A stretch of DNA of 64,000 nucleotides from Streptomyces sp. NBC_00820. GTDB lineage: Bacteria > Actinomycetota > Actinomycetes > Streptomycetales > Streptomycetaceae. Numbering within the stretch: the stretch's first letter is position 1; each line of letters starts with the position of its first letter. Below are positions 2,340-60,382 of the stretch, piece after piece. The stretch spans positions 6,436,001 through 6,500,000 of the forward strand of contig NZ_CP108882.1 of assembly GCF_036347055.1 (NCBI RefSeq). Reading direction: 5' to 3'. Below the pieces are notes generated by a model. That model was not told the origin of the DNA. It saw nothing but the letters and a program-made list of their open reading frames with translations, and did no database searches. Position numbers and translations under genes: made by a program.

Positions 2340-6716
<4,377 letters not shown>

Positions 6717-6813: not shown

Positions 6814-10086
<3,273 letters not shown>

Positions 10087-10090
<4 letters not shown>

Positions 10091-10629
10091 CTCTGCGGCT
10101 CCTGCGGTGTTCCGGGACCTGCCGCCGCCGGTGGCCCGGGTGGCTTGTCCGGGGCGTCGGCCCCGGGACCGGGTGTCGTCGGACGGGGGATCGTGGTGCC
10201 CGTGAACGACGTCTCCGAGAAGTAGAGTTCGGTGATCGTGGGATGCCAGGCGAGATGGTCGAGGTGGTACTTCCGGAGCGCCGGGCTGAGCCGGAACATC
10301 TGGCCCACGTAGTCGGCCCACGCCTGCCGGTCGGCCTCGGTGATGCCCTCGCGCCGGTGCCAGATCCATTCGAAGACGTCCAGCATGAGTTCGGCGACCG
10401 CCTGGACGCGGTTGGAGTTCGGATCGCCCTCGGTCAGCTCTTTGCCGTCGTAGAAGTACGGGCGCACCTCCGGGTGTTCCACGAACACCCGGTTGACCTC
10501 CATGAACAGGTCCGTCCCCGCGTGGTACGAGGTGGTCTCGTGCGTCTTCGCCGACACGCGGGTCGCCATCCAGGCGGCGATCACCGAAACGAGGACCGCC
10601 ACAAATGAAATCGCGTCCGAGGCGTCCAC
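10087..10629 (-). CDS. membrane-anchored hypothetical protein
   Basis: I do not recognise a named family. The 180-residue protein has one N-terminal membrane segment (about residues 6-22, AISFVAVLVSVIAAWMATRV) and a soluble domain with MEVNRVFVEHPEVRPYFYDGKEL and ELMLDVFEWIWHRREGI. Such segments are seen in hypothetical proteins of about this size with one N-terminal anchor. A Pro/Gly-rich tail ends it. GTG 10629 is preferred because GGGGGAG lies 9 nt upstream. It overlaps the dioxygenase gene by 4 nt, so the two are co-translated and the pair may act at the membrane. Confidence 0.75.
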
Positions 10630-10795
10630 TGTCTCCGACTCCCCCTGGCCGTTTCGGTCGGCGGCCGGCACCGGGCGGGCCGCCGAACATCTCATGCCTC
10701 GTCAGAATGTCAATGATCACGGGAGCGCACAAGACCGGTTCCGTCGCCCGGGACGCGCCAGGCGCCGTGAGCCGGGCGGGACTTCGGGACAGTCC

Positions 10796-12190
10796 TCAGT
10801 ACCGCCACCGGGTGGCGCGGACCACTTCTTCCGGGGACTGTCCGTCGAAGAGCGCGGCCTCCGCCCGTCGTACCGCGAGCACCGCCTCGAACAGACCGTC
10901 TCCCATGGCCCGGCGCAGCGTCCGGGACGCCTCGTAGTGCCCGATGGCCTCCGGCAGCGTCGACGGCAGCCTCCGTACCCCCCCTTCCGCGAGGGTCTCG
11001 GCGGAGGCGGTGGCGGGATCGGAGGTGAACTCGGGCGGCAGCCGCAGCCCCGCACCGACACCAGCCAGCCCGGCAGCGATCACGGATCCGACCACCAGAT
11101 AGGGGTTCGCGGCCAGGTCGAAGCACTTGACCTCCGCGTTGGCCGCGGTGCCGCGCTGGTGCGGCATGCCCGTGACGAACCGGACCGCCGCCTCCCGGTT
11201 CTCCCAGCCCCAGCACTGGTAGGCGCCCGCCCACCGGGAAGGGGCCAGCCGCAGATAACTGGCGGGCGTGGGGCAGCCGATGGCCGTGAGCGCGGGCAGC
11301 GCCTCGAGGATTCCGGCGAGGAAGGCCTCTCCGGTCCGGGTCATGCCGCGGGGGCCTTCGCCGCCCTGGAGGAGGTTACGGCCGTCCGCCCAGACGCTGA
11401 GGTGCAGATGGCCGCCGTTTCCCGTGCCCGCGAGGTCGGTCAGCGGGGCGAAGGAGGGGCGCAGCCCGTGCCGCAGGGAGGCCGCCCGCACCGTGTGCCG
11501 GACGAGGACCGCGCTGTCGGCCGCGCCGAGCGGGTCCTCCGCTGCGGTGGACACCTCGAACTGCCCGGCCGCGTACTCGGGATGGATCTGCAGGACGTCG
11601 ATGTCCTGCGCGGTGAGCGCGTCGCAGACCGCCAGCAGATAGGCGTCCGCCTCCAGGAGCCGTGTCATGCCGTAAGCGGGTGCGCCGCCGGGGTCCGGCG
11701 CCTGCCCGAGGGCCGCGCCTTCGCCGGACCGCGGACGCTCGGGGGCCACCGTCCACTCCGTCTCGAAGCCCATACGGATGCCGAGCCCGGCATCCGTGGC
11801 CTGCCGCGTCTGGCGCGCGGCGAAGGACCGCTGGCAGCCCGGGTGCACGGTGCCGTCCTGGGTGTGCCGGTCGGCCGGTGCCCAGGCCCAACCGGGCTGC
11901 GCGGCCAGCGGGGTGAGCCGGTCCAGGTCGGGCATCAGCCGGAGGTCTCCGACGGGGCCGCTCCGCGACGGGGATTCGGCGTGGGAGTCGTCCACCAGGA
12001 AGGTGTCGAAGACCGGGGCCATCCCGATGCCCCACTCCGCCGCCTCGGGCAGGCGGTGCAGGGGCACGCCCTTGACCCGGCTGATGCCCGCGTTGTCGAC
12101 CCAGCTCACCGCGACGGCGCGGACCCCTTGTCCGGACAGCTTCTCCACGGCCTGTTGCGCCTGCGTCGCGTCGAAGCGTTCAGCTGCCAT
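10796..12190 (-). CDS. glutamine synthetase family protein (GlnA-like ligase)
   Basis: A 464-residue GS-fold ATP-dependent gamma-glutamyl ligase. It has a short beta-grasp domain (residues 1-110) and the catalytic barrel with metal and Glu ligands in IRMGFETEWT and EYAAGQFEVST, the NGGHLHLSVW strand, and the ATP/glutamate Arg cluster PSRWAGAYQCWGWENREAAVRF. It differs from housekeeping GlnA: no adenylylation loop of the NLYDLP type is seen. It therefore fits the GlnA3/GlnA4 group that glutamylates amines, or a FluG-like enzyme. A strong Shine-Dalgarno (AGGAGG then GGAG) precedes ATG 12190. It is divergent from a radical SAM gene, with a tandem repeat between them. Confidence 0.85.
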   Translation of the reverse strand: MAAERFDATQAQQAVEKLSGQGVRAVAVSWVDNAGISRVKGVPLHRLPEAAEWGIGMAPVFDTFLVDDSHAESPSRSGPVGDLRLMPDLDRLTPLAAQPGWAWAPADRHTQDGTVHPGCQRSFAARQTRQATDAGLGIRMGFETEWTVAPERPRSGEGAALGQAPDPGGAPAYGMTRLLEADAYLLAVCDALTAQDIDVLQIHPEYAAGQFEVSTAAEDPLGAADSAVLVRHTVRAASLRHGLRPSFAPLTDLAGTGNGGHLHLSVWADGRNLLQGGEGPRGMTRTGEAFLAGILEALPALTAIGCPTPASYLRLAPSRWAGAYQCWGWENREAAVRFVTGMPHQRGTAANAEVKCFDLAANPYLVVGSVIAAGLAGVGAGLRLPPEFTSDPATASAETLAEGGVRRLPSTLPEAIGHYEASRTLRRAMGDGLFEAVLAVRRAEAALFDGQSPEEVVRATRWRY

Positions 12191-12346
12191 GGCGTCTCCT
12201 CCGCCTCCTGCCCCGGTCGGGCGGGACCTGCCCATGCTGGGCCATCGGTGGCCGGAGCGGAAGATCGCCGGTGCGGTCCGCCGGGTTCCTGCCGCACGGC
12301 CGTGTGCGGCAAGCCCGCGCCGGGGGCTTTCGGCGCCGGGTGACCG

Positions 12347-15588: not shown

Positions 15589-18465
15589 TCACGCCTCGTG
15601 TCCGGCGGCCGTGGCGGGAGCGCCGGGGCCGGCCGCTGCCGCGTTCAGGCGGGCGGAGAACCCCCGAGCCGTCCAGGCGGGGCGGGCGGCGCTCGGGCGC
15701 AGAGCCGCCGAGATCACGTCGGCGAGCGGCTGGGAGACCCCGTGCGCGGCGAGGACGCCGGGGGCCTCGACGGCGGCACCGTGGTACGGCGGATCCTCAC
15801 CGGTGAGCAGCCAATGGGCCACGGCGGCAAGGGAGTACAGGTCGCAGGCCGGCACCCGGCGGGCGTCGCCGTCGCGGATCTCGGGCGCCACGTAGGGCGA
15901 CGGGAAGCGCGAGAAGAGCTGGGAGACCGAGGCGGTGGACGCCTGGGGCACACGCATCCACTCGAGCATGGACACCTTGTAGTACGGCTCGTCCGGGGGT
16001 GAACCGGGCGGCGGCGTACACCGGTAGGCGGAGTCCGGGGAGAGGTCCCGCAGGATGACGTCGCCGGCGTGCAGCTCGGCCACCGCGGCCGCGAGTCCGG
16101 CGACGACCTCCGCGGCCCGGGCGGCGGGCAGGGGAGCGGGAAGCCGTCGTACCGGGTCGTCGTGTTCCCAGACGTAGGCGATGAGCAGGTGCGGTTCGAC
16201 CTCGGAGGTGTCCCTGGGCAGTTCCACCGGCCGGAAGACGCGGCGGGCCAGCGCCGGCCGGGTGCCCAGCAGCCGCGCCACCTCGTGCGTGCGGCCGCTC
16301 AGCGCGCGGCGCAGGCGGACGGCCTCGGCGCGGGGCAGGGTGGTCATGTTCTCGCCGATGATCCTGAGGTAGTGGGGCAGGCCGTTGGCCTCCGCCCGGA
16401 ACGCCTGCCAGCCGTCGCCGAGGGCGTGCGGGGACTCCAGACGGAAGCCCGAGAGGACCGGTGGGGTGGCGATCTCGCCGACCAGGCGTCGGAGACAGTC
16501 GGCGAACTCGGGTGGGCGGTGGTCGCCGGGCGCGATCCGGCGTACCCGTGCGAGCAGGTCGGCGGGGTTCTGGGCGACCAGTACCGCGGCGTCCGCGGAA
16601 CCGGGGTCGGCGAGCGCCGGCACGCGCGGGACGGCCAGCAGACAGGCGGTGCGTCCCGGCCAGCCGATCTGCCGCTTGAGGGCCGGGGCGAGTTCGCGCA
16701 GCAGCGGAAGCGGCGAATGACTGGTGTAGGCACGGGTCACGCCGGGTCCGGGCGGCCAGATCGCGGCCGCCGGGTCGAGGCCCTCGGGCAGCCGCCAGTT
16801 CTTGCACTCGACGGCGATCAGGACATCCCCGCGCAGGATCACGCAGTCCACGTCGGTCGGCCGGCCCCGTCGTTCGGCACGCGCGGCGACGATCACGGCG
16901 TCCGCCGGGTCGAGGCCCTTGGCCAGGACGTGGGCGACCGTCCGCTCCTGCTCCGTCTGGTACGGACCGAGCTGATAGAGGCGTGCCCCGCGCGCCGGCG
17001 AGGAGACCACGGCCGGCGGCCGAGGCTGATTCCCGGCCCGCGACGGCGCGACGGGGGAGGCAGGCGCGACGGCAGCGGCAGGAGCGGCGGGGGAGGCGGT
17101 GGCCGCGGCAGCGACAGGCGCGGCGGGCTCACCGGAGGCCGCCGCCGGTACTACCGCTGAGCCGTCGAGGAGCGCGAGCAGCGCGGTGGCGGTGGGGCGT
17201 TCCCCCTGGCGGCCGAGGCAGCGTTCCAGGGCACGGCGCCACACGCCGGGCACGTCCGCCGGGAGCCGGGGCAGGTCGGCCGGCGGATGCTCCCCGGCCC
17301 CGGGGCCGAGCAGCAGCGCCAGCGTGACGGTGGCCCAGGACCACAGGTCCGCCGCCTGTGGAGCCGTACGCTCCGCTCCCTCCCGGATCTCCGGCGCCAC
17401 GTGCGCGTCCCGCACGGCGGAGCGCAGGAGGTCCGTGCCGCCGCCCTGGCCGCCGATGCGCGCGTAGGCGGCGCCGATCAGGGTGACCGTCCGGCCGTCC
17501 TCGTCGGGGAAGACGAGCTCGGGCCTGATCGCCTGATGCACGACGTACCGGGCGTGCCGGTCGGCGATGGTGCGGAGCAGGGCCAGGGAGTGGCGCAGCG
17601 CCTCGTGCGCGGCCAGGCCGGTGTGCAGGAGGGCGCCGAGATCGGGGCCGGCCGGCAGCGGCAGGGGGACCACGAGACGGGTCCCGTTCTCCACGGTGAA
17701 CGGGGCGAGCACCGGGCCGGACGCCGACCGGTGGGCGACGTCGTGGTCGCGGCGCGCGCCGTAGCGGGTCTTGGTGTCGTTGGGCCCGATGACCAGGGCC
17801 ACCCGCTGGTCACGGCCGGCCGGATCGCTGTGGACGCCCTCGTGGACGACCCAGGTGTCCTGGTAGGTGAGCACCCGCCCGCGGTGGTAGCCGTTTTCGG
17901 GCCAGTTCCGCGTGCGGCGGCTGTGGAGACGGCGGCGCAGCTCCTCGGGGCCGGCCGTCGGACGCCGGCCCTGCGCCAGGCCGGCCAGCCAGGAGTCCAG
18001 CGCGCTCAGCGCCACCAGCGGGTGCCCGGGGTCCCGTTCCACCGCGGAGACGTCGACCTCGTCGTAGTGGACGACGACGCCCTGGGTGCCGATCCTGCGG
18101 CCCAGCTTCGTGTAGAGGACGGACTGCTTGTGCCGGATACGGGCGAGCGGGTTGGGCACGACGGTGCGCACCGCGCCCTGTTCGTGGTGCCAGTGGTAGG
18201 CCGCGTAGTGGCCCAGCACCCTGCCCGCCTCGGCGGGCAGCAGTTGCACGACGACGGCGGCGCCGGGCAGCAGCACCACCGCGTCGTCCTCCGTCGGGTA
18301 GGAGTACGACGCCTCCTCCCCGGCGGGCGAGTGGTGCGGCAGGACGATCCGGCCGGGCCGCGCGGACAGCGCCGCGCTGAGCCGGGCGGGCCAGCCGGAG
18401 CCCGCGGGGCCCGGCTTCGGTACCGGACGCGGTCCGGGGACGGGGCTGGAGGCGGGGGCGGTCAT
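15589..18465 (-). CDS. kinase-like/NERD/kinase-like protein
   Basis: A 958-residue protein. Residues 1-~230 are unassigned. Residues ~240-420 are kinase-like but degenerate: the catalytic loop reads VHQAIRPELV near 310 with no catalytic Asp. A low-complexity Ala/Pro linker (~440-490) follows. Residues ~495-680 are a NERD domain with PD-(D/E)XK residues Asp540, Glu553 and Lys555 (VDC and AVECKNW). Residues ~700-940 are a second kinase-like domain with Asp807 in ILRDLSPDS but no clear DFG. NERD plus kinase recalls PglW of the Pgl/BREX type 2 phage defence system. The ATG overlaps the stop of the giant upstream gene by 4 nt, so they form one operon. Confidence 0.8.
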   Translation of the reverse strand: MTAPASSPVPGPRPVPKPGPAGSGWPARLSAALSARPGRIVLPHHSPAGEEASYSYPTEDDAVVLLPGAAVVVQLLPAEAGRVLGHYAAYHWHHEQGAVRTVVPNPLARIRHKQSVLYTKLGRRIGTQGVVVHYDEVDVSAVERDPGHPLVALSALDSWLAGLAQGRRPTAGPEELRRRLHSRRTRNWPENGYHRGRVLTYQDTWVVHEGVHSDPAGRDQRVALVIGPNDTKTRYGARRDHDVAHRSASGPVLAPFTVENGTRLVVPLPLPAGPDLGALLHTGLAAHEALRHSLALLRTIADRHARYVVHQAIRPELVFPDEDGRTVTLIGAAYARIGGQGGGTDLLRSAVRDAHVAPEIREGAERTAPQAADLWSWATVTLALLLGPGAGEHPPADLPRLPADVPGVWRRALERCLGRQGERPTATALLALLDGSAVVPAAASGEPAAPVAAAATASPAAPAAAVAPASPVAPSRAGNQPRPPAVVSSPARGARLYQLGPYQTEQERTVAHVLAKGLDPADAVIVAARAERRGRPTDVDCVILRGDVLIAVECKNWRLPEGLDPAAAIWPPGPGVTRAYTSHSPLPLLRELAPALKRQIGWPGRTACLLAVPRVPALADPGSADAAVLVAQNPADLLARVRRIAPGDHRPPEFADCLRRLVGEIATPPVLSGFRLESPHALGDGWQAFRAEANGLPHYLRIIGENMTTLPRAEAVRLRRALSGRTHEVARLLGTRPALARRVFRPVELPRDTSEVEPHLLIAYVWEHDDPVRRLPAPLPAARAAEVVAGLAAAVAELHAGDVILRDLSPDSAYRCTPPPGSPPDEPYYKVSMLEWMRVPQASTASVSQLFSRFPSPYVAPEIRDGDARRVPACDLYSLAAVAHWLLTGEDPPYHGAAVEAPGVLAAHGVSQPLADVISAALRPSAARPAWTARGFSARLNAAAAGPGAPATAAGHEA

Positions 18466-21400
18466 GCGCGGGGGATCTCCCTCAGTGCGGCGGCCAGTTC
18501 CTCGGCGTTCTGGAAGCGGCGCTCGGGGCGTGCGAGCAGCGCCTTGCGCAGGAGACCCGCGAGCTGCCAGGACGTCTTGTCCTCGATGTGGTCGAACTCC
18601 ACGTCGACGATCTGCGGGTCCATGGCGCCGAGATCGCCGAGGGCCAGGTCGCTGAGCGTCCTGCGCCGGGGATGGACGAGCTTGAACAGGGTGGCGCCCA
18701 GGGAGTACGCGTCGTCCCGGGGCGAGACACCGGAGGGCCCCTGCGGGCTGCCCGCGTCGAACCGCCGCTCCTCGGGCGCGTAACGGGGGTCGAAGGCATG
18801 GTCGGTGAGGATCGGGCTGGGCTCGCCGCCGAGGTTTCCGCCGCCCCAGTCGAGGACGGTCACCCGCCCGTCGGGTGCCAGGACGAGGTTCTCCGGCTTG
18901 ACGTCCCCGTGGGTGAGCGCGCCCTCGCGGTAGGCGCGCGCGATGATGTCCGCCGCGTCGGTGATCCAGCGCACCGCCTGCTCCCAGACGTAAGGGAGCC
19001 GGTCCGCGTCGCGCATGACCTCGTCGAGGGTGCGGCCGTCGGTCCATTCGAAGACGAACCAGCGGCCGTCGACCACGGGGTGCTCCCGCAGCAGTTGGGG
19101 CGCGCTCTTGCCCACGCTCCGGTCCAGCGCCGCGAACCGGTCACGCAGCGCCGCGAGGACGGTCTCGTCGCGGTCGGGGTTGAGGAGCTTGGCGACGGCG
19201 CTGCGACCGCCCTTGAGGGTGACCCTGCGGGTGGCGGGGAACTCGTAGACCGTCTGCTCGCCCAGCGGCGCCCCCACGACGAACCCCGCGCCGCGCAGCG
19301 CCTCGGCGGGGTCGCCGGGCGGGTCGTCGGCCAGGTCCTCCGCCGTGTCCGGCACCGGGACGGGGGCGGGCCGGGCCGCCTCCCGGGCCTGTGCCTTGAG
19401 CCGCTGTCTGGCGTCCCGCTGCTTCAGCCAGATGTAGATCAGCATGTTCGACCACACCCAGTCGCTGTGGCCGTAGCGGCGGATGAGGCCGAGTTCCTTG
19501 ATCCGGTCCAGTCCGCGGTCGACCTCCGGACGGGTCGCCAGGTCGACCGTGTCGCCGTCGATGGTGGGTTCGTCGGGAGCCGTCTCGTTCTCCAGCAGGT
19601 AGGCGATCGCCTCCCCCACACCGGGCTCCCGCTCCATGTCCGAGAACGGCTTGCTGACCTCCGGCCGTTCGACCAGGGCCTGGGCGGCGGACTCGACGTC
19701 CTCGAGGGTGATGATGGAGGCCTTCCGGCCCGCCAGCAGCTTGGCCAGCTCCTCACCCATGCAGTGGACGTGGTACGGGTAGCCGCCGGTGTACTCCACC
19801 ACGCGCTCGACGACCGCCCGGTGCAGGAAGACGCCCTCGTCGAAGCCCCGCTCGAAGATCATCCGGGCCTGTTCCGGCTCCATGAACCCGACCGGGAACT
19901 CGCGGATCTCGTCGGTGAGGTTGCTCCCGTGCGGCACCAGCCGCGCCTTGAGGCTCTCGAAGCTGCAGGACCCCAGGGTCAGCAGCAGGAGCGGCATGTC
20001 GGGGTCGCTCGTCATGGCCCGCAGCTGGTCGCCGAGGTGGGCGATCGGCTGACCGGACTCGTGGACCCGGTCGAGCAGCGTCTGGAACTCGTCGATCATC
20101 AGGAGCAGACGCCAGCCGTCGAGGCCCTCCAGCCGTATGCCGGTCAGCCAGGTGCCGAACTCGTAGCCCGTGACGGGCAGCGTCCGGTCCCAGGACGCCC
20201 CGGGCCACGCCTTCTGCACGCCCCGGCAGATCTGGTCGGCGAGCCACTTCCACAGGGACACATTGTGCAGATGGCTCCAGCTCTCGCCGTTGACCTCCAC
20301 GGCCAGCACCCCGGGCAGCGGCCAGTCGGCCTGGTCCTCGGGGAGCGGGTGTGCCAGCAGCGAACGGGCCAGCGTGGTCTTGCCCACCTGCCGCGGACCG
20401 TGCAGGAACCGTACGGGAGCCGCCTGGCGGTTGCGGTAGTGGTGGCGCAGCTGGGTGAGTTCGGCCTCACGCGGCACCCGGATCCGCTGGTCGGCGGGGC
20501 TGCCGGCGGCGAACGCGTGCCCGGCGAGCTTCTCCGCCCAGCTACGGCGCTCGACCGGGAAGGGCAGGCTCAGCTTCTCCGCCTCGGCCGTGTCCGGGCG
20601 GTAGACCCAGAAGTCCAGTTCGACCCGGTCGACGCCGTACAGCTCGTCCACCCGGAAGACGACCTGTTGCCTGCGGCCCTGGGCCAGTTCCACCTCCGTG
20701 TACGGAGACCCGTTGCAGCCGATCCGTACGCGTCCCTCGTCCTCCTGCGGTTCCACGGTGAGGTGCACGTGCAGGGGGCCCTCGTCGTGGCACCACAGCT
20801 CCGACTCGGCCACCAGGAAGGCCGCGGCGATCCGCGGCGGCAGCAGGCGGCGGCCGGACTCCTCCCAGAGCCGGTAGGTGACCATGCTGACCCGCTGGGA
20901 GGCGTCGCGCAGCGGGCGGTCGCCGACCCGGCTGGTCAGCTTCCTGGCCTGCCGGCGCAGGACCATCAGGCGGGCGCGGCCCTCCTCGGTGCTGATGTCC
21001 TGGGCGAGCTGGTGGTACCAGACGTCCACCAGCTGATCGACGGTCGCCTGGTCCTGGCCGCCGGCGGCGACGGAGCGCACCGACTCCACGACCCGCTCCA
21101 GCCGGTGGGCCGCCTCCTGCCGGGCGTTGACGACGTCGGAGGCCTCGAAGGAGACCAGGTCCGCGTTGAGGTCGAACAGGAGGCTCTCCTGCGCCACTTC
21201 GTCACCGCGCAGGATCTCCAGCTCCCGGGTCCGCATCGGCAGGTCCAGATCCTGCTTGGTGGTCAGGGCCTCCTGGTGCAGGGCCGGGTCGCCGCTGCTG
21301 CGGGCCGCCTGGATCCACTCCTCGACGGCGGGCGCCAGCCGCGGACGCCCGGGGGCGTACGCCAGTTCATGGACGACCTCGCGGTAGGCCTGCGCGGCCT

Positions 21401-24400
21401 CGGCGCTCTCCCCGTCCTGCCAGAGCATCCGGGCCCACAGCCACCGTGCGTCCGGGGACACCGCGCGCCGCTGTTCCAGCAGGGTGCGCATCACCCGCAG
21501 CCGGCGGTGCGAGGGCTGGTCCCGCCCGAGTTCCGCCGAGCGCGCCTCCGCCAGCTTCTTGAGCGGGCCGGCGCCGAGGAGGCCCCGGACCAACTGGAGG
21601 TGGTCGGGGCGGCGCTCGCGCAGCGACGCCGCCACGATCTCGTTGACGTGCTGGATCGGCGGCATCAGGCTCCGGTACGCCTCCGCGACCAGTTCCTGGT
21701 CCCTGGCGTCCTGCCCCAGCAGCAGGGCGACCACGCCGAACATGCGCGCGAGGCCCGGCGGGCGGTCGGTGGCCACGGACAGCAGGGTGCGGCCCGCGGC
21801 GAGGGGGTCCCCCAGACTGTGCAGCTCGAGTCCGGCCTGCGCCAGCGGCAGGTCGGTACGGCCGAGGCCGAGATCCTCGTCGCGCATCCGGGCGATCTCC
21901 TCGATCGCCCCGGCCGGACCGCCGACGGCGTGGGCCAGCGCGACCCGCGGACGGATGAAGGAACTGCTGAACGCGAACCCGTCGACGAGTTGCCGGGCCA
22001 GGGCGTGTTCCTCGGTGTGCAGCAGGGCCAGCACCAGACCGGAGGCGACCACCTCGTTGCGCGGGTGGGCGTCGTAGGCCGTACGCCACGCGTCGGCCGC
22101 CTCGCGCCAGCGCTTCTCCTGCGCCGCGGTGAGGCCCGTGGTGAAGGCGGCGGCCGCGACCGGGCTCATCCGCATGAGGAGTTCGGGGCTGAGCGGCCCG
22201 GGCGCCGGCCGGACGAAGCGCTCGGCCTCCCCGGCCAGTCCCGCGATGAGGCGCTCGTAGTCGGCACGCAGCAGCAGGGTCTGCTGCTGGAACCGGGGGG
22301 TGCCCGGTTCGCTGCCGCGCAGTGCGTTGCGGAACGCGTCGCTGAGGCGGCGGTTCTCCCACTCCTCGGGCTTTGCCCGCAGCGGCGCGGCCGGGGACGG
22401 CTCCTGTACGGCGCCGAGCCCGGAGGTGTGCGGAGCGGCCCCGTGCGGAGCGGAACCGTCCGGAGCGCTGCCGTCCGCTGAGGAACCGTCCGGAGTGCTG
22501 CCGTCCGGGGCAGTGCCGTCCAGAGCACTGCCGTTCGGAGCGGAACCGTCCGGGGAAGGTCCCGAACCGGGAAGTACCGACCGGGCGATGACGGAGGCAC
22601 TGCTCGGGGTGAGCAGCCCGCGGGGCGACGGCCGGCCCACCAGCCGGAAGATCTCGTCCACGTCCGCCCTGTCCTCCGCCCCCAGCGCCGTCCAGCTGCT
22701 GATCTGTGCCTCGATCTCGAGCGTGTCCGCGGCCTGCTCCAGCAGGCCCAGCTGGGCGTACGCCGTCGCGATGTTCCAGGCCGCCATGGAACCGGTCCAG
22801 AGCCGGTCCGCGTACCTCCGGTACAGCTCCAGGGCCTCTTCGGCGCGGCCCGCGGTGACCAGGGTGCCGAGCGTGTGCGGGTAGGCCAGCACCTGTCCGG
22901 ACTCCAGCGCGGCGCACCAGAGGTCGGCGGCCGCTCCGGGGCCGCGCAACTGCTCCAGCTCCTGCGCCTCGTGGAGAGGGGCGGGACCGTCCTCCGGGCG
23001 GGACGGCAGCACCAGGTGCGAGCGGCGGGGCAGCAGCCGTACGGCCCGGCCGGGGTCGGGGCGCAGCGGCTGCGCGGGCAGCGGCGGGGTGGTCCGGGCG
23101 ACGAGCCGGTCGGCCTCCTCCTCCTGCCCGTTGCCACGCAGCAGCCCGACCAGCCGGTGCCGGATCCTGGGCCGCAGGGTCGGCTTGCACTGCTCGGCGA
23201 ACTCGGTCAGCAGCCGGATGGCCTCCCGGTGGTCCCCGGAGTCGTCGAGCGCCGAGGCGAGCCGCTCGACGAGTTTGGCGTCGCCCCCGGCCACCACCTG
23301 CTCGACGAGCCCGGCCGGGGCCTCCAGGTCCGGTTGCTCGGCGACCCGGTCGATCAGCAGGTCGAGCAGGGTCAGACAGACCCAGGGCGCCGTGCGTTCC
23401 AGCTGGCGGGCGACCGCCAGGACCGGCGACGGGCCCCGCTCGTCGAGCAGCTGCCGGGCCGGCTCCAGCAGCGAGGCCTTGTTCTGGCGGCCGTTCAGCG
23501 CCTGCTGGACGATGTGCTGTTCCGGCGTCGGGGCGGTGTGGCCGACGCCCGGCGCCCGCGGCCCGTTGGGTACGTGCGGGAGCCCGATCCGCCGGTCCAG
23601 CTGTGCGATCCAGTCGGCGGGGCCGCCCAGCGCGCCGGCCTGCCGCCGCATGTCCAGGGCGACGTTGGGCCGTCCGGCCGCGACCGCCACCAGACCGGCC
23701 TCGTAGCAGAGCCGCCAGTCGTCCTCGCCGAGTGCGCGCCGCTGGGAGACCAGGGCGAGCGCGTCGTCCAGCCGTCGGCTCTCGCGCCAGATCTTCATCA
23801 GCAGCAGCCGGCCCGGGGTGCGGGGCGCGGCCTCGACCAGGGCACGCAGCAGCCATTCGGCGTCCCGCAGCCGGCCGACCGTGAAGAGGCGCTTGGCGAG
23901 CGACTCGAAGTGCTGCACGGTGGTACTGCTGATGCGGGCGGGCGGCCGGGGGGCGGCCGAGGGACTGTGCGGGGACGGCGGCACCGGAATGCCGGCCGCG
24001 GCGAGGCGCTCGGCGACGAGCGGCCACACCGCCGGCGGCGGCTGGTCCCCGGTGCCGAGGGCCCTCTCCAGGTCGCGGGCGGCGCCCTCCGCGTCCCGCA
24101 GGAGTTCCCGCGCGCAGGCGCGGTTCCACAGCAGCCAGCCGGAGGCGTCGGCGGGCAGCAGGCTGTCGGCCCAGTCGCCGGCGAGGTCGGCGTCACCGGC
24201 CCGGCAGGCCCAGCCGACGGCGCACGCCGCGGCGGCCTGCGCGGCGGCACCGTGGGCGTCGGCGGCCCAGTCGGCGAAGCCCTGCGCGGCCTCCGACGGG
24301 TTCTCGATCCGGGTCAGCGCGGACAGGAGCCCCGCGGGCAGGCTGTCCGTGTCCAGTGCCAGCAGGTCCTCGTGCAGCAGGATGGGCGGCAGGCTCCCCG

Positions 24401-26717
24401 CGTCCGCGTGGGGCCGCGCCGTCGGCGAGAAGGGCGCGCTGTACGCCGCCGGAGCCTGCGCGGGCACCGAAGGCACGGCGACGGCGGGACGGGTGGGCGT
24501 GAGCCGGCGGTTCAGTTGCAGCAGGTGCTGCTCCGGAGCCCCGGACACGGCCAGCCGGTCCCGCAGTTCCGTCGCCCGGCGCATGTCACCGCTCTCGGCG
24601 GCCACCAGCGCGAGGTCGAACTGGAGCATCCAGTCGGCGGCGCCACGCGAGGTGATGCGGGACACGAACTGCTCGGCGTCGGCGAGCCGGTGCTCCTCCC
24701 GGTAGATCTTCATCAGCAGGGAGCGGCCGGGAGCCGTCGCGCTGACCTCGGTGAGTGCACCCAGGAGCAGCTCGGCGTCGGCCGTGCGCCCGCTCAGCCG
24801 CATCCGCTTGGCGGTGGCCTCGAACCGCTGTCGTACGAAGGCGTCGATCCGGGCGTCGGGGACCGGACCGTGCTTGAGGGGCGGGCGGAACGGGCAGGGG
24901 CGTCCTGCCGCCCGGAAGATGTCCAGCACCGGTTTCACGACGAGCTGGGGCGTGCTGTCGCCCAGCCTGACGACGCTTTCGAAGGCGGTGACGGCGCCGT
25001 CGATGTCGCCGAGCGCGGCGCGGGCGCATCCCTCGTTCCAGTACCGGGTCGCCGAGCCGCTGGCCTGCTCGGCGAGCCGCGCGTGCTGCTCCAGCGCGCG
25101 GTCGGGCTCCCCGCCGAACACGGACCATCCGATGGCGCACACGGCCGCGGCCCGCTGCGCCCGGCCCGATCCGTCGGCCGCCATCTCCTCGAACGCGGCG
25201 GCGGCCGCGCCGGCTCCGGCCGGCGCGCCCACCGCGGTCACCGCACCGGCTCCGATCACGCCGCGCAGGGCCCGCGGCAGCAACGGATGCCACGGTTCCT
25301 CCAGCAGCTCCGCGAGCAGCAGGATGGGCGGGACGGACACGGGCTCGCCGCTCGGTACGACGGCTGCTCCCCGCGGTCCGGTGCGGCGGGCACCGCCGAC
25401 GGCCGCCCCGTCGGGTGTCAGCCGCTGTGCCATCTCCTCGGCCATGGTGAGCAGTTGCTCGGCGGCCTCCTCGTCCTCGGTGCGCTCCGCGGTGTCCACC
25501 ACCGTCGCGAGACGGGCCAGTCCGGCGTTCGCGTCGCCGGTGCGCTCCTCGTCGTCGCCCTCGGCGCTCCCCGCGCCGCTCTTCGCCAGCTTGTCGCGCA
25601 GGGCGCGGGTCCGCTCCAGGCGTCTGCCCCGCGCGACCAGCGGGCGCGCCAGCTCGATGAGCGAGTCGACCTGTCCGGTCCACCCCTGTGCGACCTCCGC
25701 GCGGACCTCTTCGAGGAACTCGACCAGTTCGGGGCTCTCCGACATGTGCCGGGCGACGCCGTCGAGACGGCCCCGGACCGACGTCAGGTACGCCTGGGCC
25801 TCCGCGACCGCTCCGCCCTTACGGCCCGTCTCGGCGAGCGCGAGCGCGGGACGGACCGCCTCCGGCGCCTCCAGCAGGGACAGGCGTTCCTCGACCAGTT
25901 CGAGCACGGGGGCCGGGTCGAACGCCTCGCCGTCCTGCTCGACCAGGTCCAGCAGGACCATCGGCAGCAGACAGCGGGCCGCCTCGGACAGCTGGGCGAC
26001 GTCGTCGGCACCGAGGCGGAGCGGCTCGGGCGGCGGCGAGTCGCGGACGATGTCGGTGAGTTCCAGCACCTCCCGCATGCGGCCGGCGATCCGCGCCGTC
26101 GTCTCCACCGTCTGCTGATACCGGACCCCGCCCATCGTCAGGGGCTTCAGCAAGGCGCCGTTGACCGACTTGACGGCGTCGTCCGGCGTCCTGGTCAGCA
26201 GCAGGCAGGTGTCGGGGCCCTCCTCGGTGAACACCTGCAAGGGGCGCAGGAAGAGGTCCTTGCCCATCACGTGGTTGGCGGCGGCGGCCGCCTGGGCCTC
26301 CGACTCCAGCCTGCGCCACGCCTCGCGCAGCAGGCCTCCCTGGGCGGCCTGCAGGGCGGGCCGGCCTCGCGCGGACACGATGGTCTGCAGGGAGACCTTG
26401 AGGGGGTGGGGAAGGGTCTCGTCGCCGAGGAAGGTCCCGGTGGCGAACCGGCCGGTCCACGCGAAGTGCCAGAAGTCGAGGAGGGCGCCCACGCCTGAGG
26501 GGTCGTCCCCCGTGAAGGTCCGCGCCAGGGCGTCGACATGACCCACGGCGAGCGACTTCTCCGGTGCGACGGCGTGCGCGTGGAAGATCGCCTTGCGGGC
26601 GATCACGACCGCCACGGGGGCGGCCGCCGCCGCGACGTCCTGATGGAGTGCAGTGCCGGTCGCCAGCGATGTGGTGTAGCAGTCCACAGCCGTTGCCCAC
26701 TCGACAGCTTCACTCAC
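18462..26717 (-). CDS. giant TPR/AAA ATPase/Ser-Thr kinase protein
   Basis: A ~2751-residue multidomain protein. Residues 1-~450 are helical and unassigned. Two duplicated TPR-like modules follow (~460-735 and ~775-1043), then more helical repeats, a DGSAP linker (~1387-1425), and repeats again to ~1960. A beta-rich segment (~1980-2060) precedes a STAND-like AAA ATPase with Walker A GPRQVGKTT (Lys2113) and Walker B LLLMIDEFQ (Asp2209, Glu2210), then a winged-helix-like part. The C-terminal kinase (~2480-2751) keeps Lys2510, HGD Asp2605 and DWG Asp2623, so it looks active. GTG 26717 is preferred; TTG 26738 has no Shine-Dalgarno. It is the first gene of an operon with the NERD protein. Confidence 0.85.
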   Translation of the reverse strand: MSEAVEWATAVDCYTTSLATGTALHQDVAAAAAPVAVVIARKAIFHAHAVAPEKSLAVGHVDALARTFTGDDPSGVGALLDFWHFAWTGRFATGTFLGDETLPHPLKVSLQTIVSARGRPALQAAQGGLLREAWRRLESEAQAAAAANHVMGKDLFLRPLQVFTEEGPDTCLLLTRTPDDAVKSVNGALLKPLTMGGVRYQQTVETTARIAGRMREVLELTDIVRDSPPPEPLRLGADDVAQLSEAARCLLPMVLLDLVEQDGEAFDPAPVLELVEERLSLLEAPEAVRPALALAETGRKGGAVAEAQAYLTSVRGRLDGVARHMSESPELVEFLEEVRAEVAQGWTGQVDSLIELARPLVARGRRLERTRALRDKLAKSGAGSAEGDDEERTGDANAGLARLATVVDTAERTEDEEAAEQLLTMAEEMAQRLTPDGAAVGGARRTGPRGAAVVPSGEPVSVPPILLLAELLEEPWHPLLPRALRGVIGAGAVTAVGAPAGAGAAAAAFEEMAADGSGRAQRAAAVCAIGWSVFGGEPDRALEQHARLAEQASGSATRYWNEGCARAALGDIDGAVTAFESVVRLGDSTPQLVVKPVLDIFRAAGRPCPFRPPLKHGPVPDARIDAFVRQRFEATAKRMRLSGRTADAELLLGALTEVSATAPGRSLLMKIYREEHRLADAEQFVSRITSRGAADWMLQFDLALVAAESGDMRRATELRDRLAVSGAPEQHLLQLNRRLTPTRPAVAVPSVPAQAPAAYSAPFSPTARPHADAGSLPPILLHEDLLALDTDSLPAGLLSALTRIENPSEAAQGFADWAADAHGAAAQAAAACAVGWACRAGDADLAGDWADSLLPADASGWLLWNRACARELLRDAEGAARDLERALGTGDQPPPAVWPLVAERLAAAGIPVPPSPHSPSAAPRPPARISSTTVQHFESLAKRLFTVGRLRDAEWLLRALVEAAPRTPGRLLLMKIWRESRRLDDALALVSQRRALGEDDWRLCYEAGLVAVAAGRPNVALDMRRQAGALGGPADWIAQLDRRIGLPHVPNGPRAPGVGHTAPTPEQHIVQQALNGRQNKASLLEPARQLLDERGPSPVLAVARQLERTAPWVCLTLLDLLIDRVAEQPDLEAPAGLVEQVVAGGDAKLVERLASALDDSGDHREAIRLLTEFAEQCKPTLRPRIRHRLVGLLRGNGQEEEADRLVARTTPPLPAQPLRPDPGRAVRLLPRRSHLVLPSRPEDGPAPLHEAQELEQLRGPGAAADLWCAALESGQVLAYPHTLGTLVTAGRAEEALELYRRYADRLWTGSMAAWNIATAYAQLGLLEQAADTLEIEAQISSWTALGAEDRADVDEIFRLVGRPSPRGLLTPSSASVIARSVLPGSGPSPDGSAPNGSALDGTAPDGSTPDGSSADGSAPDGSAPHGAAPHTSGLGAVQEPSPAAPLRAKPEEWENRRLSDAFRNALRGSEPGTPRFQQQTLLLRADYERLIAGLAGEAERFVRPAPGPLSPELLMRMSPVAAAAFTTGLTAAQEKRWREAADAWRTAYDAHPRNEVVASGLVLALLHTEEHALARQLVDGFAFSSSFIRPRVALAHAVGGPAGAIEEIARMRDEDLGLGRTDLPLAQAGLELHSLGDPLAAGRTLLSVATDRPPGLARMFGVVALLLGQDARDQELVAEAYRSLMPPIQHVNEIVAASLRERRPDHLQLVRGLLGAGPLKKLAEARSAELGRDQPSHRRLRVMRTLLEQRRAVSPDARWLWARMLWQDGESAEAAQAYREVVHELAYAPGRPRLAPAVEEWIQAARSSGDPALHQEALTTKQDLDLPMRTRELEILRGDEVAQESLLFDLNADLVSFEASDVVNARQEAAHRLERVVESVRSVAAGGQDQATVDQLVDVWYHQLAQDISTEEGRARLMVLRRQARKLTSRVGDRPLRDASQRVSMVTYRLWEESGRRLLPPRIAAAFLVAESELWCHDEGPLHVHLTVEPQEDEGRVRIGCNGSPYTEVELAQGRRQQVVFRVDELYGVDRVELDFWVYRPDTAEAEKLSLPFPVERRSWAEKLAGHAFAAGSPADQRIRVPREAELTQLRHHYRNRQAAPVRFLHGPRQVGKTTLARSLLAHPLPEDQADWPLPGVLAVEVNGESWSHLHNVSLWKWLADQICRGVQKAWPGASWDRTLPVTGYEFGTWLTGIRLEGLDGWRLLLMIDEFQTLLDRVHESGQPIAHLGDQLRAMTSDPDMPLLLLTLGSCSFESLKARLVPHGSNLTDEIREFPVGFMEPEQARMIFERGFDEGVFLHRAVVERVVEYTGGYPYHVHCMGEELAKLLAGRKASIITLEDVESAAQALVERPEVSKPFSDMEREPGVGEAIAYLLENETAPDEPTIDGDTVDLATRPEVDRGLDRIKELGLIRRYGHSDWVWSNMLIYIWLKQRDARQRLKAQAREAARPAPVPVPDTAEDLADDPPGDPAEALRGAGFVVGAPLGEQTVYEFPATRRVTLKGGRSAVAKLLNPDRDETVLAALRDRFAALDRSVGKSAPQLLREHPVVDGRWFVFEWTDGRTLDEVMRDADRLPYVWEQAVRWITDAADIIARAYREGALTHGDVKPENLVLAPDGRVTVLDWGGGNLGGEPSPILTDHAFDPRYAPEERRFDAGSPQGPSGVSPRDDAYSLGATLFKLVHPRRRTLSDLALGDLGAMDPQIVDVEFDHIEDKTSWQLAGLLRKALLARPERRFQNAEELAAALREIPRA
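22446..22556 (-). repeat. degenerate 15-bp repeats encoding a DGSAP linker
   Basis: About seven imperfect 15-bp units encode Asp-Gly-Ser-Ala/Thr-Pro-like pentapeptides inside the giant kinase protein. They form a flexible linker between two helical-repeat regions. Confidence 0.85.
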
Positions 26718-27031: not shown

Positions 27032-27103
27032 ATGACTGTCGCCGCGATGGGCGCTGCCCACATCCGGAAGTTCGTCAAGTCCACCTCCGTGGCCTCCGGC
27101 TGA
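27032..27103 (+). CDS. 23-residue small protein or leader peptide
   Basis: The frame MTVAAMGAAHIRKFVKSTS plus four residues has a perfect Shine-Dalgarno AGGAGGTG (27017-27024) 7 nt before its ATG. It ends 62 bp before the likely rsgA start and lies in the same direction. It is Lys/Arg-containing and not hydrophobic, so neither a signal peptide nor a clear toxin. It may be an rsgA leader peptide or an independent small protein. I do not recognise it. Confidence 0.5.
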   Translation: MTVAAMGAAHIRKFVKSTSVASG

Positions 27104-57131: not shown

Positions 57132-60026
57132 TCACTTCGCTCGGCGACCTGCCGCCAATCGGACGATGTCCACCCGCGACCGGATCCCCAGCTTGCGGTA
57201 GACCCGGGTCAGGGTCGCCTCCACCGTCTTGACACTGACGAACAGCCGGGCGGCTATCTCCCGGTTGGTGGCTCCCTCCATGACCAGCGCGGCGACCTGA
57301 CGCTCCATCGAGGCCAGCGGGGCCAGGGCGTCCAGCGCGTCCGGCACCTCGACGGCGGGTCCGGGCTCGGGCGTGGCACGGGCTTCGTCCACTTGGCGCA
57401 GCCACGGCAGCGCCCGGCAGCGCCGGAACAGCCGGGTGGCCTCGTCGTACGCCGCCGTCCGCCTGTTCCCGCTGTCCGTCCGCCTGCCGTCCCCGCCCTC
57501 GGCCGGCCCGATCCCGTCCTCCGCGCGGCCGCCGCCGTCCTCCGCGCGCCGGGCGCGCAGCCGGGCCAGGGCGAACGCGGCCCGCGCCTCCTCCAGGCCG
57601 TAGCCGAGCTTGGCGAGCCGGTCCTGAGCGGACGTCAGCTGGGCGACGGCGGCCTCCTGGTCGCCGCGGGCGGCCCGGACCAGGGCCTCGGCCCGGTCGA
57701 GGACGGCGAGCACGCTCTCCCGGCCGAGCCGGAGGGCGTGCTCGCGGCTGGCGTCGATGAGGTCCTGGGCCTCGGCCGGTTCACCGATACGGACCAGCGC
57801 CTCGGCGAGGTCACCGTGCCAGCGGCCGCGCGCCGGGTCGGTGATGCCGAGGTCCCGCTCCAGCCGGCGCACCCGGCGCAGCGAGCGGACCGTGCCCGAG
57901 GGATCGCCGGCCACCAACTGGGCGTAGCCGAGAGCGGCCAGGGCCCGGGACAGGTACATCTGGTCGCCGTCCTCCTCGGCGTGCTCCACCGCCTCCCGGG
58001 CCAGGGCCAGGGCACGGTCCACGTCCCCGCCCGAGGCCTCGGCCAGCGAGGTGAGCATCGCCGAGGCGGTCTCCCCGATCCCGGAGTCCCGGGCCAGCCG
58101 GAGGCTGTCGCGGGCCAGTTCCAGGGCGCGCCCGCAGTGCCCGGCGTGCAGCTCGGTCTCGGCCAGCCCGCGCAGGAAGTGCACCTCGCTCTCCACCGAG
58201 CCTCGCCGGCGCACCTCGCCCAGCAGCGCGGTCACCGTCGTCCGGGCCTCGCCCAGCTGGTCGCCCATGACCAGCCAGCGGAACCGGGCGCTGCCCGCGC
58301 CGTTGTGATGGCACGCCACCCGGGGATCCTGGGGCTCCTTCAGGGCACGCTTGATGGTGCGCGGGGCCTCCGGATGACCCATCAGGGTCTCCGTCTGCGC
58401 CTGGAAGGCCAGCGCGAGCAGCTCGGTGCGCCGGTCGGCGCCGCGCGCGGCGAGGTCGGCCGCGTGCGCGGCGGCCTCGCGGGCCTCGGTGAAGTCGCCC
58501 TCCACGATCAGCGCCCGCCAGGCCAGCTGGTAGTGCACGAGGGCCAGCAGCCGCGGGTCGTCCCCGGCGTCGGCGAGCGCCTGCGGGAAGACCGAGTCGA
58601 CCACGGCCATGGTGTGGCCCGCGGTGTCGATGACGATCATCCAGGCCCGCACCCGCTCGGCGGGCACACTCGACCGGCTGAGCACCTCGCGGGCGATGTC
58701 CCGGGCCAGATCGACCTCGCCCGCGGTGATCGCGTCCTCGGCGGCCTGGAGCCGGCGCTCCTCGGGACCGGGGCGGCTGTCGGCGGGGGTTCGCCGGGCC
58801 GCGAGCAGCCCCAGCTGGGCCGCCACCGACGGGGCGCCCCGGTCCCGGGCGAGGGTCGCGGCCCCGGCGAGCCGGGCCGCCACCTCCGGGTCGGTGCCGG
58901 CGGTGGCCAGGGCCAGGTGCCGGGCCCGTTCGATCGGGTCGGAGGCCGCGGTGGACAACGCGGCGTGCGCGGCCCGCCGTTCCGGCGCGGGCGCCTCCGC
59001 GTACAGCGCGGCGGAGATGAGCGGGTGCGCGAACCGTACGGCCGGGGCGTCCGGCTCGGTGGCGAGCAGCCCGAGTTCGGCGGCCTGGGCGCACTCGGCC
59101 TCGGCGTTCTCCCGGCCGGCCGCGTGCAGCAGCGCCGGGGTGGGCCGGGCGCCGGCGCTGGCCACCAGCAGGGTGCGGCGGGCCTCGACCGACAGCATGT
59201 CCAGCCGGCTGAGCACCAGCGCGCGCAGCGAGGTCGGCACCGGCAGCGGCTCGCCCGGCCGGGGCGGGGTGGGGCTGTCGGCGAGGGCGCGGCCGAGTTC
59301 CAGGGCGAACAGCGGGTTGCCGCCGCTGGTGCGGTGGATCTCGCGGACGGTGGAGCGGGGCAGGCCGCCGTGACCGCGGTGGTCGAGCAGCCGCGCCACC
59401 TGGGTGCGGTTCAGCGGGCCGAGGCGGACGGCGACGGTGCCCGGCGGGCAGGCGCGCAGGTGGCGGTCGTACTCCTGGCTCTGCGGTCCCTCCGTGCGGA
59501 CCGCGCACAGCAGTTGCACCGGGGTGCCCTCCAGGCGGCGGGCGGCGAAGCCGAGCAGTTCGGCGCTGGCCGGGTCCAGCCACTGCAGGTCGTCGGCGAC
59601 GACCAGCACCGGACCCCGGGCGGCGAGCGTGCGCAGCGCGGAGAGCACCGCCAGGCGCAGGGCGAGGCCGTCGCGCAGGAGGCTGGACTCGCCGCGGCCG
59701 GTCAGCGCCGACTCCAGGGCGGTGCGCTGGGCGACGGGCAGCCGCGGCGCGACCTCGTCGAGGACCAGGCCGAGGAGGTCGGCGAGGGCGAGGAAGGGGA
59801 GGTGCGATTCGGACTCCGTCGCGGAGCAGCGCAACACCGTGCGCGCCGTCGCGCCGTATTCCTCGGCCAATGCCCGCAGGACGGTCGATTTCCCAATTCC
59901 GGCGGGGCCGTGGAGCAGCACACTGCCCCCGGAGGCGATTTGCTCCCGTGCGCTCGCGAACAGCTCCTCGCGGCCGATGACCAGGTCGGGGCGGCATCGG
60001 GCAGGCTCCTGGAAGTCCCGTCGCAC
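57132..60026 (-). CDS. LAL-type LuxR family regulator
   Basis: A 964-residue large ATP-binding regulator of the LuxR family. Walker A is GPAGIGKST (Lys46) and Walker B is VLVVADDLQWLD (~130). The AAA/STAND core is followed by ~550 residues of TPR-like helices and a C-terminal LuxR HTH (ALVMEGATNREIAARLFVS and KTVEATLTRVYRKLG, ~905-945). GTG 60026 is chosen because GGGGAG lies 8 nt upstream; TTG 60062 has none. LAL proteins are ATP- and ligand-gated activators. The adjacent trypsin gene, transcribed in the same direction just downstream, is a plausible target. Confidence 0.9.
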   Translation of the reverse strand: MRRDFQEPARCRPDLVIGREELFASAREQIASGGSVLLHGPAGIGKSTVLRALAEEYGATARTVLRCSATESESHLPFLALADLLGLVLDEVAPRLPVAQRTALESALTGRGESSLLRDGLALRLAVLSALRTLAARGPVLVVADDLQWLDPASAELLGFAARRLEGTPVQLLCAVRTEGPQSQEYDRHLRACPPGTVAVRLGPLNRTQVARLLDHRGHGGLPRSTVREIHRTSGGNPLFALELGRALADSPTPPRPGEPLPVPTSLRALVLSRLDMLSVEARRTLLVASAGARPTPALLHAAGRENAEAECAQAAELGLLATEPDAPAVRFAHPLISAALYAEAPAPERRAAHAALSTAASDPIERARHLALATAGTDPEVAARLAGAATLARDRGAPSVAAQLGLLAARRTPADSRPGPEERRLQAAEDAITAGEVDLARDIAREVLSRSSVPAERVRAWMIVIDTAGHTMAVVDSVFPQALADAGDDPRLLALVHYQLAWRALIVEGDFTEAREAAAHAADLAARGADRRTELLALAFQAQTETLMGHPEAPRTIKRALKEPQDPRVACHHNGAGSARFRWLVMGDQLGEARTTVTALLGEVRRRGSVESEVHFLRGLAETELHAGHCGRALELARDSLRLARDSGIGETASAMLTSLAEASGGDVDRALALAREAVEHAEEDGDQMYLSRALAALGYAQLVAGDPSGTVRSLRRVRRLERDLGITDPARGRWHGDLAEALVRIGEPAEAQDLIDASREHALRLGRESVLAVLDRAEALVRAARGDQEAAVAQLTSAQDRLAKLGYGLEEARAAFALARLRARRAEDGGGRAEDGIGPAEGGDGRRTDSGNRRTAAYDEATRLFRRCRALPWLRQVDEARATPEPGPAVEVPDALDALAPLASMERQVAALVMEGATNREIAARLFVSVKTVEATLTRVYRKLGIRSRVDIVRLAAGRRAK

Positions 60027-60382
60027 GGTCACCGCTCCCCTCGTGTGTCGTGTTCGGGCCAAATTCTAGGCAACGATCCCTGAAATTCGGACGGAAGCCC
60101 TGGTGAGGGAAATAACAAACGGGCAAGGGGAATTCAAAGCGACGGCACGCGCGCGCCCGGGTTTCCGCGCGGTCGTCACCACCACAGCCGTCACCACAGC
60201 CGTCACCACAGCCGTCACCACGGTCGTCACCGCCACGGTCATCATCACCACGGTCGTCACCGCCTTGGCCGCCATCACCAGGTTGTCACCGCCACGACCG
60301 CCCCGACCGCTCTCGCCGCCCCGACCGCTCTCGCCGCCCCGACCGCCCTCGCGGCCCCGGCCGGTCCGGCGCACGGCCCCGG
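60027..60382. repeat. repeat-rich intergenic region
   Basis: No gene is assigned in this gap. It holds three exact and one diverged 12-bp units (ACCACAGCCGTC, 60181-60228), related GTCACC repeats to ~60290, and 18-bp CCCGACCGCTCTCGCCGC-type units around 60303-60350. The minus strand can be read as low-complexity Val/Thr and Gly/Arg/Glu repeats in a frame different from the neighbouring gene. Confidence 0.7.

Follow-up and report, generated by a model that had tools for sequence, protein, structure and literature searches.

An accessory gene pair of Streptomycetaceae joining a STAND-type ATPase-kinase to a NERD-pseudokinase protein: a candidate two-protein conflict system

A 64,000-nucleotide stretch of the genome of Streptomyces sp. 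NBC_00820 (contig NZ_CP108882.1, positions 6,436,001 to 6,500,000; hereafter the window, with coordinates counted from its first nucleotide) contains two overlapping genes, termed A and B, which encode respectively a very large protein combining repeats, a predicted STAND-type ATPase and a Ser-Thr kinase, and a smaller protein in which a NERD domain lies between two degenerate kinase folds. An earlier note on this DNA had singled out the pair as a candidate defense or signaling system. The genes are arranged as follows:

18462..26717, minus strand: gene A, 2751 amino acids, repeats / STAND-type ATPase / Ser-Thr kinase, GTG start at 26717
15589..18465, minus strand: gene B, 958 amino acids, NERD / predicted pseudokinase protein, ATG start at 18465
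18462..18465: ATGA overlap of the A stop with the B start

The frame of A contains a single stop codon, located at its end; alternative starts are a TTG seven codons upstream and the start used in one database entry (P0014), 10 codons downstream. Frame length alone is no proof of a gene here, because a G+C content of 74% readily produces long open frames, and antisense frames of 1297 and 1207 amino acids are also present in the window. Searches of a protein database, which scored about 8000 candidates sharing most words and from which remoter relatives may escape, yielded for B 11 clusters, each bearing the name Streptomyces or Kitasatospora and matching 95-99% of the B length at 68-84% identity, and for A (residues 1500-2751 as query) its own entry, 10 close clusters at 64-82% identity and a single distant cluster at 27% identity. 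Searching with an alignment of the B homologues returned the same 11 and a 523-residue entry identical to B over some 490 residues, after which it departs from the frame. On the evidence of these homologues, at 64-84% identity, both A and B are real genes. Seven of the 10 close A clusters share the size of their longest contig with a B cluster, with neighboring locus tags in three of the seven, and the four-nucleotide ATGA overlap recurs in the copies from Streptomyces sp. DSM 110735 (L001) and Kitasatospora phosalacinea (L002). The coordinates and overlap proposed in the earlier note are borne out, and the pair is co-inherited in relatives.

Protein B comprises four regions:

17881..18393, minus strand: residues 25-195, N-terminal domain that may be a decayed NERD (weak; PglW alignment, E 0.007)
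17146..17883, minus strand: residues 195-440, predicted pseudokinase 1, with HQ[A/S]IRPEL and the catalytic Asp lacking in 12 of 12 sequences
16471..16998, minus strand: residues 490-665, NERD, with the PD-(D/E)xK-type motif D538/D540...E553-x-K555
15616..16464, minus strand: residues 668-950, degenerate kinase fold 2, HRDxKPxN and DFG degraded

The NERD domain (PF08378) scores 24.3 bits in the whole protein, over the Pfam cut-off of 22.1, and a precomputed NERD label is present on all 11 B homologues. All 12 sequences share D538, D540, E553 and K555 without exception, and likewise E505 and E507 of the preceding helix; acidic and lysine residues of this type are catalytic in the PD-(D/E)xK fold, a role predicted here for those of B. 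Two results count against the assignment: the domain cut out as a fragment scores 18.5 bits, below the cut-off, and the NERD model, run against all six frames of the entire NBC_00820 genome, found nothing at E<=0.001.

The kinase folds were read by the motifs general to active kinases (the VAK lysine, HRDxKPxN and DFG). Fold 1, in which Pfam finds a weak kinase match at residues 284-387, carries HQ[A/S]IRPEL in place of HRDxKPxN throughout the 12 sequences. Fold 2 reads LR[D/E/H]LSPDS, keeping the HRD aspartate in six of the 12 and replacing it by glutamate in one and histidine in five; the lysine and asparagine of HRDxKPxN are lost in all, and DFG is replaced by LEW (11 sequences) or LDW (one). 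Comparison of folds 1 and 2 shows them to be related (E 1.3e-10). Because catalytic-site residues are lost, both look like pseudokinases by their motifs, leaving the sole apparently intact kinase of the pair in A. The layout of a NERD between two kinase-like folds, as the earlier note described it, stands, but the kinases of B look dead.

A second NERD domain in the N terminus of B was considered and set aside: the alignment to the NERD position of PglW reached just E 0.007 with a probability of 5%, the region matched neither the NERD of B itself nor the Pfam NERD model, and it is kept as a weak idea. A low-confidence model gives the region a NERD-like order of strands and helices.

The corresponding features of protein A are:

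20898..26717, minus strand: residues 1-1940, repeat-rich TPR-like N-terminal region, its extent inferred from TPR matches, internal duplications and the helices of a low-confidence model
24462..25355, minus strand: residues 455-752, first copy of an internal duplication of about 300 residues (37% identical to residues 769-1050, E 8e-51)
23568..24413, minus strand: residues 769-1050, second copy of the duplication of about 300 residues (same comparison)
20544..20819, minus strand: residues 1967-2058, strand run, possible beta-sandwich before the ATPase, of low confidence (model, mean predicted local distance difference test score, pLDDT, 41.7)
19767..20471, minus strand: residues 2083-2317, predicted STAND/ORC-type ATPase, Walker A GPRQVGKT, Walker B LLLMIDE
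18474..19310, minus strand: residues 2470-2748, intact PknB-like kinase by its motifs (VAK lysine, HGDxKPxN, DWG)

Within the repeat region TPR_19 matches at residues 1532-1579 with 26.9 bits (Pfam cut-off 25), other TPR matches being weaker, and the low-confidence model places helices at its C-terminal end. The ATPase scores 27.7 bits with ATPase_2 (E 2.9e-6) and 25.5 bits with AAA_16 (E 2.1e-5), below the Pfam cut-offs of 33.2 and 32.6; all 12 aligned sequences retain its Walker A and Walker B motifs, the 27% relative showing minor differences beside them. One chain holds two STAND features, intact Walker motifs and repeats that pass the TPR_19 cut-off; assignment to a STAND clade would be tentative, the curated scores lying below cut-off and the model being of low confidence (mean pLDDT 41.7). 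The kinase gives a Pkinase match at residues 2552-2685 of 27.7 bits, below the cut-off of 31.7, and as a profile covers the PknB domain at E 1.1e-16; its VAK lysine, HGDxKPxN and DWG occur intact in every one of the 11 close sequences, whereas the 27% relative has them broken. The make-up of TPR, AAA and kinase modules that had been read from the letters alone holds. The distant relative itself (P0025, from Streptomyces sp. NPDC102451) is of similar length and retains intact Walker motifs together with a broken kinase (HGDIRPEH, GWG).

To place these modules we compared them with MAD6 of the MADS systems and PglW of BREX type 2. Profiles were built from the open frames of eight places over the MAD6 cut-off and 21 of 22 further places (one short one omitted); eight of the 29 members were checked, two of two passing the NCBIfam MAD6 cut-off and six of six that of PglW, and the others were assigned by score pattern. 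The E-values are those of single comparisons, and the B profiles are shallow. Residues 485-950 of B are colinear with the NERD and first kinase of MAD6 (414 columns, E 2.5e-11, probability 97.3%) and of PglW (395 columns, E 4.7e-11, probability 97.2%). Fold 2 of B resembles the first kinase of MAD6 (5e-10) and of PglW (2.6e-8) more than their second kinases (0.003 and 0.06), and more than it does the kinase of A (1.3e-4); fold 1 matches the first kinase of MAD6 at E 7.8e-10 and that of PglW weakly, at 0.001. The kinase of A shows the opposite preference, for the second kinase of MAD6 (8.2e-18) and of PglW (2.9e-9) over their first (4.9e-5 and 0.002). This preference is consistent with a derivation of the A kinase from the second kinase of MAD6 or PglW, and is no proof of descent, because any active kinase might show it. 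The ATPase of A gave no match to the MAD6 and PglW profiles.

Neither protein belongs to the MAD6 or PglW families by curated thresholds: B scores 99.4 bits and A 32.8 with the NCBIfam MAD6 model (cut-off 460), B scores 25.7 with PglW (cut-off 990), and no NCBIfam cut-off is passed by A or B. PglW has an active kinase in its NERD-bearing chain, and none was found in B. In the genome of NBC_00820 nothing exceeds the MAD6 cut-off, the best match spanning model positions 299-480; across the genus the cut-off is passed in eight of 199 genomes, and all 199 match at E<=1e-10 because the model also catches ordinary kinases. Taken together, the profile comparisons make the pair look like a PglW/MAD6-type module set divided between two proteins, its kinase carried by a STAND-type sensor. 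The likeness of NERD plus kinase to PglW noted earlier is confirmed, and reaches MAD6 too.

Set against known systems, the pair shares with MAD6 the order of NERD then first kinase, the second MAD6 kinase (HCDIKPSN) being the best match of the A kinase; MAD6, however, is one chain and the pair two, the pair adds a pseudokinase half and a STAND-type ATPase, and no MADS partner gene was seen beside it in the ORFs (open reading frames) scanned. The kinases PD-T4-6 and MkoA, the latter the Mokosh kinase, give partial matches to the pair, mainly in its kinase parts, and no shared architecture was seen outside the kinase fold. STAND NTPases with repeat sensors operate in conflict systems, Avs among them. 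VMAP-type STAND systems likewise resemble A in joining repeats, a P-loop NTPase and an effector in one chain, and their actinobacterial members usually have disrupted kinase domains, as set out in sections of PMC7159879. Compared with Avs and VMAP, the effector of A would be an active kinase, presumably acting on a separate NERD protein, and its repeats precede the ATPase. PglW shares with the pair a NERD and first kinase (as in B) and a second, active kinase (as in A), the latter needed for phage resistance according to portions of PMC4365076; it is a single chain that ends in an inactive STAND domain and also has DNA-binding modules (PMC12839542, in part), whereas A has intact ATPase motifs fused to repeats. 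The order NERD, inactive kinase, active kinase recurs in PglW and some DndF proteins, where portions of PMC12839542 and PMC10853773 read it as a sensor hub with a suicide effector; the DndF variants have the same three modules as the pair, a likeness drawn by description only (PMC10853773, in part), but no Dnd gene lies beside the pair in the ORFs scanned. The parts of the pair are known; the arrangement appears, to our knowledge, to be new, no such pair having been found described in the open-access literature, covered mostly as titles and abstracts and with subscription papers and most preprints outside it.

Gene B is rare. A DNA search, of a kind that would miss strongly diverged copies, found it in three of 392 Streptomyces genomes, that of NBC_00820 included; among 394 genomes of the family it returned NBC_00820 itself and one full-length copy in another genus (at the K. 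phosalacinea position), and besides these five short stretches of 73-112 bases. The pair is accordingly, on this survey, accessory and not genus-wide. The earlier note had named universal presence at one locus in Streptomyces as grounds for abandoning its reading; universality does not hold, although the locus is the same in all three genus carriers, where the pair stands between a CBM2/radical SAM/ALO block and RsgA-Ada/AlkA. A first ORF comparison had suggested a different locus in Streptomyces sp. DSM 110735; this was discarded, since protein-level comparison places RsgA there. In 18 pair-less relatives the region upstream of RsgA takes three forms: an empty site in seven (RsgA beside CBM2, some 250-750 bases apart), other genes spanning 6.9-10 kb between RsgA and CBM2 in three, and no CBM2 or radical SAM gene inside the fetched 20 kb in eight. 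On a tree of 24 RsgA proteins, which omits the genome G003, the three carriers require at least three changes, forced by well-supported branches; given these changes, the pair is read as having entered or left one site more than once. Identities between carriers (73-80% for A, 75-82% for B) are similar to those of the neighboring RsgA (77-81%), which would fit both old residence with losses and separate gains. The K. phosalacinea copy lies elsewhere, its nearest genes carrying GH115 C-terminal and carbonic anhydrase domains. In the type strain of Streptomyces bungoensis (L003, 8997-11005) residues 1-331 of A abut residues 603-938 of B, the middle being missing, whereas A and B are full-length in other S. 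bungoensis entries; the copy looks like a deletion remnant of the pair, although an assembly fault may explain it instead.

The surroundings of the pair were scanned with Pfam (20 window ORFs, among them two or more antisense frames that matched nothing) and PADLOC (10 ORFs), 14 of the 42 predicted ORFs being unscanned. None of the scanned ORFs is PglX, PglY or PglZ, in agreement with the earlier note, although no genome-wide search for these was made; location in a defence island, which that note had proposed as a check, is not what was seen, the neighbors and most other cargo being non-defense in the ORFs scanned. The three gaps occupied by other cargo hold 25 predicted ORFs, of which 10 were scanned with Pfam and eight with PADLOC. 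A dedicated defense hotspot was considered for this site and is not supported, one of the eight gap ORFs scanned with PADLOC and none of the 10 scanned with Pfam being defense-like. The single such ORF (L088, genome G014, 3710-5368, minus strand) encodes a MAD3/MAD8-like ATPase (123 and 56 bits, PADLOC) in the same RsgA-CBM2 gap.

Three further observations concern the window itself. Directly upstream of rsgA, at 27032-27103 on the plus strand, lies a 23-codon ORF (MTVAAMGAAHIRKFVKSTSVASG) with a good-looking ribosome-binding site. ORFs of 22-23 residues similar to MTVAAMGAAHIRKFVKSTSVASG precede rsgA in 10 other genomes by pattern search, the remainder, including G175, being without a match, and Rfam gave no match in the window; the ORF is possibly a conserved rsgA leader peptide. 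At 9326-12200 (minus strand) a 2OG-Fe dioxygenase gene stands beside a glutamine synthetase-like gene; no match to either turned up in the stretches fetched from relatives, and the two may represent a second local insertion. At 57132-60062 (minus strand) a 976-residue ORF has a weak CARF-like PADLOC match (30 bits, residues 916-958).

We consider the likeliest explanation, at an even chance tilting barely in its favor, to be that A and B constitute an accessory two-protein conflict system, most plausibly anti-phage, which would act by a kinase relay to the NERD domain. The immune role is placed first because the presence of the pair is sparse and unstable, the pair is isolated, and its modules are akin to those of phage-defense proteins. 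Under the proposed mechanism, a NERD-pseudokinase-kinase module would have been split so that B retains the NERD and pseudokinase, preceded by an additional pseudokinase half, while in A the active kinase is joined to a STAND-type ATPase and its long repeats. The repeats would keep the ATPase off; a trigger arising in infection would let the ATPase bind ATP and oligomerize, and the clustered C-terminal kinases would then become active and dock on the pseudokinases of B. Phosphorylation of B by the A kinase, or an allosteric switch, could then release the NERD domain, which would cleave the DNA of the phage or of the cell and stop the infection or kill the cell.

Several results weigh against this interpretation. 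No known defense gene was recognized among the window ORFs scanned by Pfam or PADLOC, and in the gaps eight of the 10 ORFs scanned with Pfam carry metabolic, transport or regulatory functions and none belongs to a defense family; gene B is absent from the phage, plasmid and viral collections searched. The PADLOC matches of A and B themselves are partial and confined to the kinase parts or the P-loop, and the A kinase resembles PknB about as strongly as MAD6. AlphaFold gave no usable structure for B (12 rows, mean pLDDT 45.2) or for residues 1880-2751 of A (three rows, mean pLDDT 41.7). The N-terminal repeats of A are about as conserved as the rest of the protein and not hypervariable, unlike a sensor in an arms race. 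As to the NERD domain, parts of PMC9040797 describe its biochemistry as unstudied as of 2022 and one NERD protein, SmdA, as working in staphylococcal cell shape.

Much of this evidence would suit an accessory signaling system outside defense, which we think unlikely and yet the most serious competitor: A would sense a conserved internal ligand or stress and signal through its kinase to B, whose NERD would bind or process DNA or nucleotides in stress, development or metabolism. The conserved repeats of A, identified neighbors and other cargo that are mainly metabolic or regulatory, the same chromosomal site in three genus carriers, and the cell-shape role of the SmdA NERD (PMC9040797, in part) all speak for it; the very sparse distribution with repeated gain or loss and a decayed remnant, and the fact that the closest module relatives found are defense-system proteins, speak against it.

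The tight overlap, the co-inheritance and the joint partial deletion of A and B in the S. bungoensis type strain could also point to an addiction unit of the toxin-antitoxin kind, in which A, or the pseudokinases of B itself, would keep the NERD of B in check until A is lost or activated. We regard this as improbable: a 2751-residue ATPase-kinase far exceeds in size any antitoxin known to us, and no plasmid, phage or viral copy of B occurs in the collections searched, although a suspected toxicity of PglW in E. coli, mentioned in portions of PMC4365076, would be in keeping with such a unit. Least probable of all, and by our estimate very improbable, is that the pair was left over or broken away from a BREX type 2 or MADS locus and needs partners elsewhere in the genome, for the module kinship with PglW and MAD6 that suggests it is set against a genome without MAD6 over cut-off (PglX, PglZ and other MADS genes were not sought genome-wide), the lack of such genes beside the pair in the ORFs scanned at two unrelated loci, and pair motifs that are kept in relatives.

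The conflict-system interpretation has a more specific form, which we advance tentatively and hold rather doubtful in its entirety: a self-sufficient two-protein immunity of Streptomycetaceae, in which an NLR-like STAND receptor would phosphorylate a separate nuclease restrained by pseudokinases, the PglW/MAD6 module having been split and duplicated. Elsewhere, modules of NERD, inactive kinase and active kinase sit inside large systems (BREX type 2, MADS and some DndF), where their role is hard to isolate. The split over two genes would make both the control of NERD by a kinase and the cutting of DNA by NERD directly testable with two proteins, and, if the pair protects against phage, it would represent STAND sensing joined to phosphorylation of a nuclease partner.

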